Shown here piece after piece: positions 3,548 to 13,544 of a stretch of 64,000 bases of DNA. Numbering within the stretch: position 1 is the first letter of the stretch; each line of letters starts with the position of its first letter. Origin of the DNA: Schizochytrium sp. TIO01 (lineage: Eukaryota; Sar; Bigyra; Thraustochytrida; Thraustochytriidae). Both the position numbers and the translations under genes were made by a program. The notes beneath the pieces were generated by a model that was not told where the DNA came from, ran no database searches, and saw nothing but the letters and a program-made list of their open reading frames with translations. The DNA lies in contig SMSO01000014.1 in NCBI GenBank assembly GCA_004764695.1, forward strand, positions 3,609,148 to 3,673,147, written 5' to 3'.

Positions 3548-6500
3548 ATGTCACAGTTCAAAAAGGTCGTGCCACAGGTATATGATAATATAATTGCTGC
3601 AGACATTCTTCAGACCAACAGTGCGCAAAGTAAGGCTGTTTTAGACGTAGCGAATTCTACTAATCCTGAACGTGGCAAGGAGGGTTCTTCTAAATTCGAT
3701 TCTGTGGAAGATTTCTATGATGAACACCCTCTCGAAGTGACCAAACATGAACCTGTTATTGCAAATGTAGCAAAAGTAAAAAGATTGCCGTCAAATATAG
3801 CCATCGCATCCCAAATACCCTTGAATTTAACCGCTTCAGAAGACATTAAGGGGGAAGCTCAAGAGAGCGTAAATAGGGCCAGAGCGATTAACAATTTGCA
3901 GGCAAGGCGAAGATTCAAGATTATAGGGTTCTGTCTCATTGCAGTTTGCATAATAACTGCAGTTGTAGTCTCATTTGTCTGGTATGCAACATCATCTGAA
4001 AGTGGCGGGACTTTGGATAATTGCGCGATTGGTTACTACTGCCTACGAGAAACATTTGTGTTTCCATGTCCAGGAGGAAGATTTGGGAATTCGACAGGTT
4101 TGACAACCAGTGATTGCTCTGGAGTTTGTACGGCTGGATATTACTGCCCGCTCGCAAGCATCACACCAACCGCAAATTTATGTCCAGCTGGTTCGTATTG
4201 CCCGGAAGGTAGCGCAGAGCCAATTCTATGTCCTGCTGGAAGTTTTGGTAATGAAACTGGGCTTTCTCATAGCTCGTGCAGCGGTAGTTGCTCAGCGGGC
4301 TACTATTGCCCCCAGGGCTCGACATCTGCGAAAGAAATTATCTGTCCTTTAGGGAGTTATTGCCCTGATGGCACACGTTATGGAACCGAGTTTATTTGCC
4401 CTCTAGGCACCTATAATGATGAGCCCGGACTTGCAGCGATCTCTGATTGCCCTATATGCGAGGCTGAGCCTGGCGCTGGCTATGTCTGTGCTCGTGGTTC
4501 TTCACAATCGCCTAGTGAAGATGTTATATTATGCCCTGAGGGGCACTATTGTACGGGCATTGGCTTGCCTATCGAATGTCCATCTGGAACTTATGGTAAT
4601 GTGGAAGGACTTAGTACTAGTGCTTGCTCTGGAAATTGTCCTTCAGGTTATTGGTGTCCAAATGGTACTGTCACAGCAACTTCTCAATTATGCCCTGCAG
4701 GGTATTACTGCCCAAGTGGAGTGCAAAACTACTCGGATAATCTATGCTGGGAAGGCTACTATTGCGCAGAAGGGACCCAAACACCATACACATTATGTAT
4801 CCAAGGTCGCTACTGCCCAGCTGGTTCTAGTGATGGAACATATTGCCCTGCCGGAACCTACGGCATCTCAGAAGGCCTTATCTACCCTAATTGCACAGGA
4901 TTATGCCCAGCATCCTATTACTGTCCAGCTGGATCCGTTGCACGTTTCACACACTTGTGTCCATCTGGTTCTTACTGCCCGGAGGGGACTGGAGCAGGCG
5001 AAGAATTTAAATGCCCTGCAGGAAATTGGTCTTCGTTAACTGGATTGAGCGAATTGAGTCAATGTTCTTGTACGGACCCAAGTGGAGAATGTAGCTACAA
5101 CGGTTTGTGTTACGCTGGCTACTATTGCCCAGAGGGGTCCACTTCTGGAACTGGAGAAATTTGTCCTGCCAACTTTTACTGTCCACGTGGTTCAAGTGCG
5201 CCAATACTCTGTGAAGAATTAGGTTATTACTGTCGAAGTCGAGCACAGAGCCCTTATGCATATACTAATGGTGCTCGCTTTACTATTCTAGAGACGTTGA
5301 GCGCAAAAGCTCGTCGGTGGGCAGCAGATTATCCAGCTGCGGCGCAGCAGTATCTGTACCAAAATTATACCCTTGAACAGGGCTTTATGATTGAATCCTC
5401 CAAAAGTACGTATGATGGATCTTTGTACGAAGATGAACGATACTATCCAGTACGTGGTTTGTCAGAACTCAATGTTAACTTTACTACTTATGGATTCTTT
5501 AATGCAAGTGTCTTCATCTGTAGCGTTTTGAATGGTACTGAAGACCCTTTACCATTAGCTGAAGTAGGAAATATCCAAATGGATGCAGCTCGAAACTCCT
5601 CTGATACATACACGCACTCATTTAAAGTACACTGGGACATTCCTCGTGAGTTCGTCGATGGTGAGATGGTCGTCTGTCTCCGGATGCCTCAAGGGGATGA
5701 TCCATTTGCACTTGTTGTTTCTGACATATTTGAGATCATGGCACCTGATGTTGTTAAGCCGTTGCGATACGTCGCTACAATTTGTATAGGCAGCCTATTT
5801 GTTCTCATCCTTGTAGCTACGATCCCTTGCTTCCTTCTGCATGCGGACCGTTCCCGAGACAGGGAGATCCATGCTCTTATTAAGTCCCCAGCGCCGAATT
5901 CAGTGCGGCTTCTGTCGAGGCTTTTTCGAGTTATCGAGCCTGCCCAATTCATGGCAGTTATATTCTGGAATCCTGCCATCAAGCAAGCCGATACTGCTGC
6001 AGATGCACTGGCATTCTGGTGGAACCATCTCCTGGGTCTATACTTCCTACCAGTTATGGGTTTTATTGTAGCCTGTTTGGTTGCCGGGGGCGTGATTATA
6101 TTCGCTGTATCTACCGATGTAGTTTTGAGGCTGCTTAAGCTTGAGAGGCGACGTCTTGAAATGACTTGTGTGGCTCGCCTCCTTGCGTTTGAGGGTCTTT
6201 ACATTCCAATCCTTATGACGCTTCTCTCTCCGTTCGACTGTGCGTACACGAACCCGAAGGCTGACGATGCTTACTTTGAGTTTGTAGATCAAGTTCGAAT
6301 GCGATATTTTCTAGCAACACATCTTGAATGCTGGCACAACCCTATGCATATATTATTCTCCTTAGGAGCGGTAATTTTAGCTCCCTGCTTCTACTACATG
6401 GCTCTCAAAAATGCGATCCAAGATGATTTTGTAGATGTGTTACATGTGAATATGGTTTGCAGGTACCGAGTGCTCTCAGTTATAGTTAAGACTATTATCT

Positions 6501-9163
6501 GTTTTGGCGCTGTCCTCACGAATGCCGGGCAGACAGCCACAGAGGCATTGGCGCTAACACTGTGCAGTACTACTCTGTCTATGGAAATATTTCTTGAAGT
6601 TCGCCACATGCAGCCAACATTAGGCCGTGCGGCTCGCACAAATGACCTCCTTGCCGGCTCGTACTTGGCTGTTGCATATTTGAGTCTAGCAGGGTTATTC
6701 ATTAGCTTGATTCACGAGGCTAAAAATATCGAAGAGCGCACAAGTTGGCCAATGGTGTTTGCTTACTGTTTCTTGCCACTTTCATTCCTCCTTGGAGTAC
6801 GTCTAAACTATAAGTTTTCACAAGCGCAGGTCGAGGCGAACACTTTTGAGAAGCTTACAAGTGCAACGTCAGCTAGTGTGCGCAATCGAGCGCTAGAAAA
6901 AACGATTGAGTTTCTTTTGAGCGTTTATACATACGAAAACGCCAAGGGTGAAAAACTGCAAAACTTCGTGAAGCATCTAGGCACCTTGGTTGAGAGTGAG
7001 CCCCTTGCACGCAATGCTGTGGCGAGCTTAGTTAGTTCAAATGCTGATCCAAGTCGGAAAACCTTTGGCGTGGACGTCGCAAGTGTTTCCTCCGCGGCAT
7101 TTCTTGGTTCTGGTTTCTTGCCACTTTATGGAGAACCAATTGAGATGCTTTCGATGATGCTTTTACCAATTCACAGCTGGGATTTGTCTGGGATTAAATT
7201 CGAAGATTCTGTGATTTTGCGGATTGGCCAAATGCTCCCCAAAATGCATAACCTGCATAGCTTTGAGCTGGGTAAACCTAAGTCATTAACTTGCGAAGGT
7301 TTTAAAGCTTTACTCGAAGGTTTGGAGCTAAGTTCGAGTATAATGCACTTCCAGTGTTCTCCACCTGAAAGTCTAAACGTTCTTGAGCATGGGCGAACAG
7401 TTGGAGCACTAATACAATTGAGAGCAGCTCAAGCTCAGGAGAATAAATCTGCGCTTCCAATTACTCGACTCGACTGTGGAAGTAGCTTATATATCCAACT
7501 GTTTTTTGGGCATGATGTTACATACCATGATTCTTCAGTAACAGTTAATGAAGAAATGAACTTGATTATCTCGCGGGCATGTGATGTACACATGGTTTCA
7601 ATAACCATAAGAAGTCAACGACATCCAGCAACGGAGGATCTGGATTCAGGGTTATACGGCTTGTGCCACTCGCTGTGCTATAAAAATGGTAGACCAGCAA
7701 CTTTAGCCTTTCCACAGCGCTTCAAACTTCGTTTTGCAGTCCCAAGTGGGTATACGGTTCACGTTGGAGAGTCACTCAAAGCAATAGGTTATCATTTCCC
7801 TCTCGAATCGATCTATCTAGACCAAATCCTAATTGCAGACGCGTCCACTTCAGAGATTCAAATGAAAAACTTTGAGAAAATCAAAGGGAGCATTACTTTT
7901 GTGGAGGGCCTCTTAGCAACATTACGACACGTACAGTATCTTGCTCTTCCAACTAGCAATGAGGGAGACGATGCAAATCAGTTAGATGCTGCAAAGAGAA
8001 TAGGCCAGGCCATTGCTTCAAACTCAGCTATGCGGGCGCTCAACGTCGGTTTTGGAAACCTAGATATTAAGGGTTTACAGTACGAACGTAGTGAAATCGT
8101 CTTTACCCAAGATTCGTCGCTTTCGAGTGAACAAGCTTTTGCTTTGATGCCTCTGATTTCATGTAACAATAGTCTTGTAAAGATTGAGCTTCATGGTGTT
8201 CCACCTCGTCAAATTCTGAGTGATATTGGTGTTGCAGAGGTATGCCGCAATCTGGAATCGTGTCCTAATCTGCGCAAACTTGCGCTAGGTGACTGGAAAG
8301 GCGGAAATATAGTCGGAAATCACACCGTAGACGCTTTGAATTCAGCTAATTTCATCACTCACTTAACTTCTTTAGATTTGCGCCATTGTAAGATAGGTCC
8401 AGAAGTTTGCCTTGGGTTGATGAATAACCTTTGTGGCAAGGCGGGCCAAATGACAAGTTTAAAGATTTCCCTTAACCCATTAGGGGATGAGGGTATCAGG
8501 GCAATCGGGAACTTCTTGGCTCATGAAAGATGTATTTTGAATAAACTTCATGTCAGCCACGCTGAGTTCACAACAGAGGGTTTTCGAAGCTTTTGTAACT
8601 CCGGCCTTCGATATAATAATAGCCTCCAACACTTAGTTTTAGATGGAAACGTTGGCGGAATCGATCTAGACATCTTGGCACGCTCCATCGAAGGTGGACT
8701 ACTTGTAACGAAGATAGAGTCTATAGCTTTAGTTGGCTGCGGCATCGAAAACTTTGCTCCTTTATGGAGAATCATAAAGTCACCAGAGGATCAGGTTGAT
8801 GGACTGCCTGTGTGCCAAAGTTTGATCAAGCTTAATCTCTCCGAAAATTCGGAATGTTATCTTCCTACACTTTTGATTCCGTGTCTGCAGAACCTGACAG
8901 TGCAAAATTGTGGATTAGATAACGAAACTGCAGAACGTATTTGTACTGCCCTGGAACTGAGAGCGTGTCCCAAGCTTGAGGGTTTAGACCTATCATGCAA
9001 TAAGATCACGGATGATGTAGCATTTCGCCTTGCAAAAGTTCTTGAGAGTCAAACCACAACAAGTGCACTCAAATGCGTGTGTCTTACTGAGAACAAGTTT
9101 TCTATTGAGTGCCTAGACGTTATAACTCGACTTTGTCCACCCAATGTTATCTTGGATATCTAA
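3548..9163 (+). CDS. Giant receptor-like protein: Cys-rich ectodomain, multi-pass membrane bundle, C-terminal LRR tail
   Basis: One uninterrupted frame of 1,871 codons from the ATG at 3548; the frame is open 8 codons upstream from a GTG, without an ATG. Residues 1-125 are hydrophilic. A single hydrophobic anchor lies at about 126-150 (IIGFCLIAVCIITAVVVSF). About seven cysteine-rich modules follow (157-564) with repeated GYYCP, CPAGSYCPEGS and CSGSC motifs, typical of GCC2/GCC3 ephrin-receptor-like repeats. A further ectodomain with several N-glycosylation sequons extends to about 732. Seven or eight hydrophobic segments lie at about 735-1094. The last 650 residues contain leucine-rich repeats of the ribonuclease-inhibitor type (LTSLDLRHCKIG, LEGLDLSCNKITD). 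The topology suggests a surface sensor with an intracellular LRR tail. Ligand and signalling partner are unknown. Similar Cys-rich membrane proteins are expanded in stramenopiles. Confidence 0.85.
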   Translation: MSQFKKVVPQVYDNIIAADILQTNSAQSKAVLDVANSTNPERGKEGSSKFDSVEDFYDEHPLEVTKHEPVIANVAKVKRLPSNIAIASQIPLNLTASEDIKGEAQESVNRARAINNLQARRRFKIIGFCLIAVCIITAVVVSFVWYATSSESGGTLDNCAIGYYCLRETFVFPCPGGRFGNSTGLTTSDCSGVCTAGYYCPLASITPTANLCPAGSYCPEGSAEPILCPAGSFGNETGLSHSSCSGSCSAGYYCPQGSTSAKEIICPLGSYCPDGTRYGTEFICPLGTYNDEPGLAAISDCPICEAEPGAGYVCARGSSQSPSEDVILCPEGHYCTGIGLPIECPSGTYGNVEGLSTSACSGNCPSGYWCPNGTVTATSQLCPAGYYCPSGVQNYSDNLCWEGYYCAEGTQTPYTLCIQGRYCPAGSSDGTYCPAGTYGISEGLIYPNCTGLCPASYYCPAGSVARFTHLCPSGSYCPEGTGAGEEFKCPAGNWSSLTGLSELSQCSCTDPSGECSYNGLCYAGYYCPEGSTSGTGEICPANFYCPRGSSAPILCEELGYYCRSRAQSPYAYTNGARFTILETLSAKARRWAADYPAAAQQYLYQNYTLEQGFMIESSKSTYDGSLYEDERYYPVRGLSELNVNFTTYGFFNASVFICSVLNGTEDPLPLAEVGNIQMDAARNSSDTYTHSFKVHWDIPREFVDGEMVVCLRMPQGDDPFALVVSDIFEIMAPDVVKPLRYVATICIGSLFVLILVATIPCFLLHADRSRDREIHALIKSPAPNSVRLLSRLFRVIEPAQFMAVIFWNPAIKQADTAADALAFWWNHLLGLYFLPVMGFIVACLVAGGVIIFAVSTDVVLRLLKLERRRLEMTCVARLLAFEGLYIPILMTLLSPFDCAYTNPKADDAYFEFVDQVRMRYFLATHLECWHNPMHILFSLGAVILAPCFYYMALKNAIQDDFVDVLHVNMVCRYRVLSVIVKTIICFGAVLTNAGQTATEALALTLCSTTLSMEIFLEVRHMQPTLGRAARTNDLLAGSYLAVAYLSLAGLFISLIHEAKNIEERTSWPMVFAYCFLPLSFLLGVRLNYKFSQAQVEANTFEKLTSATSASVRNRALEKTIEFLLSVYTYENAKGEKLQNFVKHLGTLVESEPLARNAVASLVSSNADPSRKTFGVDVASVSSAAFLGSGFLPLYGEPIEMLSMMLLPIHSWDLSGIKFEDSVILRIGQMLPKMHNLHSFELGKPKSLTCEGFKALLEGLELSSSIMHFQCSPPESLNVLEHGRTVGALIQLRAAQAQENKSALPITRLDCGSSLYIQLFFGHDVTYHDSSVTVNEEMNLIISRACDVHMVSITIRSQRHPATEDLDSGLYGLCHSLCYKNGRPATLAFPQRFKLRFAVPSGYTVHVGESLKAIGYHFPLESIYLDQILIADASTSEIQMKNFEKIKGSITFVEGLLATLRHVQYLALPTSNEGDDANQLDAAKRIGQAIASNSAMRALNVGFGNLDIKGLQYERSEIVFTQDSSLSSEQAFALMPLISCNNSLVKIELHGVPPRQILSDIGVAEVCRNLESCPNLRKLALGDWKGGNIVGNHTVDALNSANFITHLTSLDLRHCKIGPEVCLGLMNNLCGKAGQMTSLKISLNPLGDEGIRAIGNFLAHERCILNKLHVSHAEFTTEGFRSFCNSGLRYNNSLQHLVLDGNVGGIDLDILARSIEGGLLVTKIESIALVGCGIENFAPLWRIIKSPEDQVDGLPVCQSLIKLNLSENSECYLPTLLIPCLQNLTVQNCGLDNETAERICTALELRACPKLEGLDLSCNKITDDVAFRLAKVLESQTTTSALKCVCLTENKFSIECLDVITRLCPPNVILDI

Positions 9164-12314: not shown

Positions 12315-13544
12315 TTACGTAGAATTATGATAATGAAAAGTGGAAAGAACCAGTTGTATTGCAGAATCATAGCGAGAATTAAAATCCGGATACGCCTCAT
12401 AAGACACAACGAGATCACAACTGTACGCCATAGCAATTATTCGAGCTACAATATCAGGCGCGAGACGCACAGAGAGAGCTGTGTAACATGACTTCATTGC
12501 CTCAAACAGTTGTACTGCAGGATCAACCAGAGACACTTTGTATACCTCCATCCATTTTTTTGCAGCAGATGAGATAGGCCTGCCAACCAAAACCTGCCTT
12601 CGAACTGTGTCTGATACATATCGCTGAATTGGCCTGCACCGAAGCAGCTCATGCAAGCAAGGCTCTTGGTACTCCAGGTCGAGCAAATTCAGGCCTACAA
12701 GAAATAAATCCGGTTTTCGTAGAAATGCTTGTAGAAGCTGAACATGACCTATTTTACAAGCTTCAATAATGAAATCGTGTGCTCGATAAAGAGGCAAATC
12801 TGACCGTGGATCTTGAATGAGCACATGCACGACGTCAACATGTCTATTCATTGCTGCTTTCTGACACGCGCGACTTCTAAACTCACTAGGGTCAGCTCCA
12901 TGCTTTAAGAGCAGTTTGACACACTCCACGCTCCCATTTTCAGACGCAAGGCGAAGAGCACCTCCAAGATTATGATCATCAAAAGTTCCAGGTCTAGATT
13001 CGAGAAGTTCTTTGCATATATCAAAGCAACCAGACTTGGCTGCAAAACGCAGTGCGCCACTTTGGTTTGCGTCAACATCTAACTCAAGTAAGAATCGCAC
13101 TGGTTCAAGCTGCCCATTTCCAGCGCTATCTCGAAGTGCTGAAGATTGTAAGCAACCAGGATGAATGATTAGAGGGAAGGTCCCGAGAAGAATTTTCATT
13201 GCCTCGACCCGACCTGATATTGCTGCCTCGCAAAAGATCTTTTCTAAACCTCGCACTTTACAAAGTTCCGGAAGCCCAGCCTCCTGCAATATATTTAGAG
13301 AATCTTGGGCCCATTCTGGTGTATTCAAATTTAAGTTCTCTACAGCCACCTGTATGTTATCCATATCTTCATCCACCTCATGAAGCTCCAACTCCGCAGT
13401 ATCGACTGACACTTCCTCCCTAGCATCAGAATCTTTCTGAGCTTTTCGAGGCTTCATCCTCGCAGCTCGGGCACGGCAGTAGTCTTCTAAAGATTGTTTA
13501 AGCCATTTCTCAGACTCTGATGTCTCTACGACGAAGGACTCCAT
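12315..13544 (-). CDS. Ankyrin-repeat protein
   Basis: A 409-residue protein starting at an ATG. The N-terminal 90 residues are charged and acidic. The middle (about 100-280) carries degenerate ankyrin repeats, seen in the spaced motifs SALRDSAGNGQLEPVRFLLE, GALRFAAKSGCFDICKELLE and GALRLASENGSVECVKLLLK. Ankyrin repeats mediate protein-protein contacts, and no catalytic domain is visible. The C-terminal 100 residues are unassigned. Similar free-standing ankyrin proteins are numerous in protists and their partners cannot be predicted. The gene is divergent from the Elongin A-like gene, about 1.1 kb away. Confidence 0.85.
   Translation of the reverse strand: MESFVVETSESEKWLKQSLEDYCRARAARMKPRKAQKDSDAREEVSVDTAELELHEVDEDMDNIQVAVENLNLNTPEWAQDSLNILQEAGLPELCKVRGLEKIFCEAAISGRVEAMKILLGTFPLIIHPGCLQSSALRDSAGNGQLEPVRFLLELDVDANQSGALRFAAKSGCFDICKELLESRPGTFDDHNLGGALRLASENGSVECVKLLLKHGADPSEFRSRACQKAAMNRHVDVVHVLIQDPRSDLPLYRAHDFIIEACKIGHVQLLQAFLRKPDLFLVGLNLLDLEYQEPCLHELLRCRPIQRYVSDTVRRQVLVGRPISSAAKKWMEVYKVSLVDPAVQLFEAMKSCYTALSVRLAPDIVARIIAMAYSCDLVVSYEAYPDFNSRYDSAIQLVLSTFHYHNST

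Follow-up and report, generated by a model that had tools for sequence, protein, structure and literature searches.

The window, a stretch of 64,000 nucleotides from Schizochytrium sp. TIO01 (GC content 44.7%), contains a gene for a large membrane protein in which an anchor helix and two ectodomains, the first of them Cys-rich, precede eight hydrophobic stretches and a C-terminal tail that carries RNI-type leucine-rich repeats (LRRs). The genome also has two PfaD matches over the cut-off, a family that passes in 1/14 control genomes as well; they would fit a labyrinthulomycete such as Aurantiochytrium. This domain architecture is real and goes beyond chance, because a full-length paralogue in the same genome keeps both the domain order and the motifs of the membrane bundle. 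The LRR tail is predicted to face the cytosol.

One open frame and its paralogue

Open reading frame analysis gave one uninterrupted frame from the ATG at 3548 to the stop codon ending at 9163, which encodes 1,871 amino acids (Table 1). A single frame thus holds all the parts, as the earlier note on this DNA had claimed. Its description of the gene as one exon agrees with the uninterrupted frame at 3548-9163, although exon status is read from the open frame alone. Hydropathy analysis revealed a helix at residues 125-143, then about 600 residues without a helix, eight hydrophobic stretches within residues 742-1086 and finally a tail of 785 residues. The first of these, TM1, is a hydrophobic helix beyond those that had been named before, and the paralogue frame has its counterpart at residue 62. 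Because RRRFK directly precedes TM1, the N-terminus of the protein is probably cytosolic. Elsewhere in the window, a 409-aa frame on the minus strand (12315-13544) appeared ankyrin-repeat-like by eye.

Table 1. Positions in the window of the gene and of the features of its protein
Feature	Residues	Position	Strand	Basis
Whole gene		3548..9163	+	One open frame, 1,871 aa; paralogue
N-terminal segment, no Cys, ends RRRFK	1-124	3548..3919	+	Hydropathy, Cys count
TM1, signal anchor	125-143	3920..3976	+	Mean hydropathy 2.92 over 19 residues
Cys-rich ectodomain, 46 Cys, repeated CPxGxYCPxG-like units	150-570	3995..5257	+	Cys count, related Cys-rich genes
Second ectodomain, one Cys pair kept in paralogue	571-738	5258..5761	+	Smith-Waterman score against shuffles
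Membrane bundle, eight hydrophobic stretches	742-1086	5771..6805	+	Hydropathy; paralogue score 126
Conserved bundle motif E882-x-LY-x-P887 ... C898-x-Y900 ... C928-W929 ... H934		6170..6349	+	Paralogue alignment
First part of tail, weak or no LRR signal	1091-1558	6818..8221	+	Scores against three LRR proteins
RNI-type LRR region	about 1559-1852	8222..9103	+	Pfam and PDB matches
G-x-W-x-x-G-N insert in LRR region, common to paralogue		8288..8308	+	Motif search

The paralogue frame (C35:1196846-1202653, minus strand) comprises 1,936 codons with the first Met at 12. It runs through the same parts in the same order as the window gene, from the anchor helix over the Cys-rich part and the second ectodomain to the bundle and finally the LRR tail. 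In BLASTP the two proteins aligned from TM1 into the bundle with 281/976 identities (29%, E 6e-84). At the level of sequence, the ectodomains and the bundle of both paralogues are homologous. When the genome was searched with the window bundle, only the bundle itself was recovered; the paralogue bundle found, besides itself, the window gene (2.4e-5) and one stretch on C3 (3.6e-4) interrupted by three stops. This stretch was rejected as a third copy, being without the conserved bundle motif. The genome has at least two such genes, as counted by a search that scores the best candidates only.

In Pfam searches (whole protein at E<=1, pieces at E<=10), the only matches of the window protein were to LRR families, apart from one that was taken as chance. 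Neither the whole protein nor the pieces matched NACHT, NB-ARC, TIR, death-fold or kinase domains, nor GPCR, GAIN, GPS, ephrin-like or channel families. The STM4015 family was the sole NCBIfam match, located in the LRR parts; its 18.6 and 20 bits are below the cut-off, which is 275. Scans starting from a few short peptide patterns found no relative of the protein or of the bundle profile A3 on viral contigs, and no relative in prokaryote genomes.

Ectodomains

The Cys counts of the Cys-rich parts are even in both paralogues, with 46 in the repeats of the window protein and 48 in the paralogue. The earlier note had assigned these repeats to GCC2/GCC3. The corresponding family PF07699 (Ephrin_rec_like, GCC2/GCC3) gave no match with the whole protein at E<=1 or with its pieces at E<=10; an EGF match was likewise missing in Pfam. 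More generally, the Cys-rich ectodomain showed no Pfam match in pieces at E<=10 and no PDB match at E<=0.1. Across the genome, PF07699 passes its cut-off at 14 places, all outside the window gene. A tblastn search of the genome with the Cys-rich part (E<=10) returned 44 rows, one of them the query itself and several belonging to the same gene, and such matches can be inflated by composition. Among them, C32:1623917-1624582 is 39% identical to the window Cys-rich part, and PF07699 passes inside it (1624205-1624327). As judged from these sequence matches, the GCC2/GCC3 label is reasonable for a relative, but not for a member by the Pfam cut-off.

Further Cys-rich frames were observed in this genome. 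Three Ephrin_rec_like frames about 10 kb apart (C30:3566602, 3577614 and 3587106) form a candidate tandem family, and the frame at C30:3566602 also has Chlamydia PMP-type repeats. Two very long loci, C30:449823-468059 (plus strand) and C32:1618642-1627900 (minus strand, two overlapping frames), each combine Cys-rich repeats with ten hydrophobic stretches. Their bundles match each other strongly (score 760) and matched no Pfam family; TIG domains were matched in the scanned part of the C30 Cys-rich gene. Kinship of the window bundle with these two bundles is not claimed, since its scores of 38 and 52 compare with 42 and 40 for the reversed controls.

The additional ectodomain proposed in the earlier note is indeed present at residues 571-738, with a pair of Cys, and is homologous in the paralogue. 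Its Smith-Waterman score against the paralogue domain was 60, while shuffled sequences gave 30.1 +/- 4.6 (maximum 43) and the reversed sequence 25. No Pfam family, GAIN and GPS included, matched this domain at E<=10. A tentative reading is that it may be Kre9/KNH-like.

Membrane bundle and topology

The window bundle scored 126 against the paralogue bundle and 44 against the reversed paralogue bundle. Three further hydrophobic frames of the genome served as controls and gave scores of 33-52 with either bundle; one of these frames (C34a) overlaps an opposite-strand frame and may not be a gene. The polar or aromatic positions common to both bundles include E882, L884-Y885, P887, C898, Y900, E911-F912, D914, C928-W929 and H934, a pattern that might correspond to a putative protist LY-x-P ... 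CW ... H bundle family. The bundle matched no Pfam channel or transporter family at E<=10 and no PDB sequence. A Pfam match to CclA_1 (E 0.075, below its cut-off) and three PDB matches of profile A3 (E 0.31-0.39) were taken as chance. Structure prediction by AlphaFold from single sequences was poor for both parts, with mean pLDDT values of 45.3 for the bundle (370 aa) and 40.4 for the tail (775 aa).

Topology was scored by a home-made dynamic programme that combines biological hydrophobicity values with a positive-inside term and fixes the start outside after the ectodomain. It was run at 12 settings for each of the two proteins. Topologies with the tail inside beat those with the tail outside in 24/24 runs. 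The margin ranged from 0.3 to 4.7 in the window protein and from 0.5 to 10.3 in the paralogue. After the ectodomain, the window protein was assigned nine crossings in 6/12, seven in 3/12 and five in 3/12 settings, while the paralogue was assigned seven crossings in 10/12 and five in the remaining 2/12. The bundle of seven to eight helices described in the earlier note corresponds to eight visible hydrophobic stretches, but judged by parity and charge the crossings are more likely odd in number (5, 7 or 9, depending on the setting) than eight.

Glycosylation sequons were enriched in the ectodomains, with 11 in the window protein (3.5 +/- 1.7 by shuffling) and 9 in the paralogue (3.2 +/- 1.6). 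The tails showed no such excess, having 7 (5.8 +/- 2.1 by shuffling) and 2 (6.3 +/- 2.4) sequons, respectively. Because all runs place the tail inside and the sequon excess is confined to the ectodomains, the LRR tail is most likely cytosolic, a placement that prediction supports but does not prove and that the earlier note had suggested. It had also been argued that an even number of helices would place the LRRs outside. Eight stretches are seen after the ectodomain, yet odd crossings are favoured there, and TM1 had gone uncounted. Once TM1 is added, the favoured totals become even (8 or 10), yet the tail stays inside because the N-terminus lies there too.

LRR tail

The tail matched Pfam LRR_6 at 3.8e-14 (52 bits against a cut-off of 23.4) and 38 distinct PDB sequences at E<=1, including ribonuclease inhibitors and NLRs. 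The bounds of the LRR region in Table 1 are the union of the best-matching PDB stretches. In contrast, residues 1101-1500 scored 43, 55 and 56 with three LRR proteins, and the corresponding shuffled sequences averaged 40, 38 and 40 (z 0.6, 3.3 and 3.6). On these scores, the "650-residue LRR tail" of the earlier note can be demonstrated only in part: RNI-type LRRs are found at about 1559-1852, while 1101-1500 is without a clear LRR score.

Compared with each other, the two paralogue tails scored 116; two further LRR proteins from the same genome reached 114 and 136 with the window tail. In a genome search with either tail, the other paralogue was absent from the matches listed. Within six frames of the window and the 64 loci, the motif G-x-W-x-x-G-N was confined to the two tails. 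Common descent of the two tails is likely because of their position and this shared insert, not because of the overall score. Alternatively, two separate gains or fast evolution may account for the tails, since they are no more alike than the window tail is to the two further LRR proteins, and the search with each tail did not list the other gene.

The tail searches also showed that LRR frames of RNI type are common in this genome. A frame in the region C36:2088172 (L003:595-3480, plus strand) encodes an LRR_6 protein (102 bits) of a second LRR-plus-membrane kind, in which the LRRs come first and several hydrophobic stretches follow, as seen by eye.

Comparison with known systems

In plan, the window protein comes closest to the cysteine repeat modular proteins (CRMPs) of apicomplexans and ciliates (Toxoplasma CRMPA/B, Plasmodium CRMP1-4 and the Tetrahymena CRMPs), compared here by description only. 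As given in the available portions of two CRMP studies (PMC9815656, PMC9670195), these proteins carry Cys-rich modules outside, including ephrin-receptor-like ones, followed by a multi-helix core and a long cytosolic C-terminal tail. The same portions describe nine predicted helices in Toxoplasma and Plasmodium and five in Tetrahymena, C-terminal tails of 565 (CRMPB) and 478 (CRMPA) residues, experimental support for a cytosolic C-terminus of TgCRMPa, a CRMPA/CRMPB heterodimer, an expansion of CRMPs in Paramecium as well as Chromera, and Dictyostelium proteins for which a similar helical core is predicted. According to the text available from PMC9815656, the tail is a possible interaction platform, and downstream partners were sought in that study and none was found. 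For comparison, the window protein has eight hydrophobic peaks in its core (5, 7 or 9 crossings depending on the setting), and its last helix is followed by a 785-residue tail with a predicted inside position. It differs from the CRMPs in several respects. Its tail bears LRRs, whereas the words leucine, LRR and stramenopile are absent from the main texts of PMC9815656 and PMC9670195; the EGF-like, kringle or lectin modules of the CRMPs were undetected in it; and in place of their predicted signal peptide it has an anchor helix.

Adhesion GPCRs are similar in their large modular ectodomain, membrane-proximal domain and helical bundle, but the window protein is without a GAIN/GPS or 7TM match in Pfam. 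LGR receptors, in which the LRRs are N-terminal, likewise unite LRRs with a helical bundle. As far as the available parts of the sources go, LRRs are among the extracellular domains of adhesion GPCRs (PMC12716839) and those of LGR receptors are also extracellular (PMC4548225), whereas the window LRRs are C-terminal to the bundle. NLR proteins (the NLRP family and NLRX1), which are among the 38 PDB matches, share the RNI-type LRRs; unlike them, the window protein is a membrane protein and gave no NACHT match. Among PDB sequences, ribonuclease inhibitor matched the LRR region best (1.5e-13); it is not known to be part of a membrane protein.

An NLR-like signalling complex, for which the earlier note had offered the tail as an assembly platform, was rejected, the protein having no NACHT or NB-ARC match and LRR frames of this type being common in the genome. 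Elsewhere in the genome, 5/7 NACHT matches were over the cut-off, and the family also passes in 3/14 control genomes. One NACHT match (C30:7356586-7357119, 5.9e-9) lies about 5 kb from an LRR frame (C30:7361997-7362380), and the two possibly belong to an NLR-like protist gene.

No protein of the same domain order was described among the matches listed, which is weak evidence of absence as most subscription journals lay outside the search. This order was also absent from the portions available of PMC12716839, PMC12223298, PMC12221091 and PMC10445921. In PMC12221091, which deals with candidate ectoplasmic-network proteins of Aurantiochytrium limacinum, none of the terms ephrin, cysteine-rich, leucine-rich and GPCR appears in the available text. 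The domain order may be new to this extent, but the term "undescribed system" used in the earlier note is too strong, because the CRMPs, as far as the available texts describe them, share the Cys repeats, the multi-helix core and the long cytosolic tail.

Possible functions

We give about an even chance to the protein being a sensor of the plasma or secretory membrane with a CRMP-like or GPCR-like plan and a cytosolic LRR docking tail, the likeness to CRMPs being one of description only. With the N-terminus and the tail in the cytosol, TM1 would anchor the disulfide-rich part and the membrane-proximal domain outside. A ligand or surface contact would then be relayed through a bundle of seven or nine helices to the tail, where the RNI-type LRR arc would dock cytosolic partners. 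Sensing, signal transfer and the use of the LRRs as a docking surface are all what we infer. A GPCR-like output is possible because heterotrimeric G proteins exist in the genome (13/22 G-alpha matches exceed the Pfam cut-off), none of them linked to the window protein. By analogy with CRMPA and CRMPB, it is our guess that the two paralogues might act as a pair.

An ion channel or transporter, in which the LRR tail serves as a regulatory anchor, seems unlikely. The order of an N-in TM1, a large ectodomain and a further bundle of helices resembles the polycystin/TRP layout; against it, the bundle matched no channel or transporter family in Pfam (E<=10) and no PDB sequence, and its profile gave only the three chance-level matches. 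We consider it quite unlikely that the protein is a true divergent 7TM GPCR signalling via the G-alpha subunits of the genome, with the LRR tail as a secondary element. The preference of the paralogue for seven crossings and the 13 G-alpha places over the cut-off speak for it, but no Pfam 7TM family was matched and the window protein prefers nine crossings in half of its settings, with seven and five in a quarter each.

The fact that Cys-rich repeats are common to other large open frames of the genome would also suit an adhesion or wall-anchoring protein without a signalling role, whose LRR tail links to the cytoskeleton. An anchor, however, would not need a polytopic bundle that is conserved and has polar motifs in common with the paralogue, and this explanation is highly doubtful. 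Very improbable is the opposite topology, with the LRR tail outside like the LRRs of LGR receptors. It would follow if each of the eight visible stretches crossed the membrane once, and the margin against it is small (0.3, 0.4 and 1.4) for the window protein at the lowest charge weight; nevertheless, every topology run favours the tail inside, and the tails show no sequon excess, the paralogue tail even having 2 where 6.3 are expected.

Within the preferred reading of a membrane sensor with a cytosolic docking tail, a more specific proposal is decidedly unlikely as it stands. The two paralogues would work as a pair and form a class of receptors whose nine-helix core, similar to that of CRMPs, carries a cytosolic RNI-LRR docking arc. 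In labyrinthulomycetes the pair would couple contact at the surface to regulated secretion, for instance at the bothrosome, and so be the stramenopile equivalent of the rhoptry and mucocyst exocytosis that CRMPs trigger. Transformation has been reported for Aurantiochytrium in the part available of PMC12227449. If the protein is CRMP-like, contact sensors of the rhoptry-discharge type would reach past the alveolates into the stramenopiles, and the LRR tail would mark the binding site of downstream partners. If it is not, the layout would still be that of a membrane protein whose LRR arc probably faces inward.
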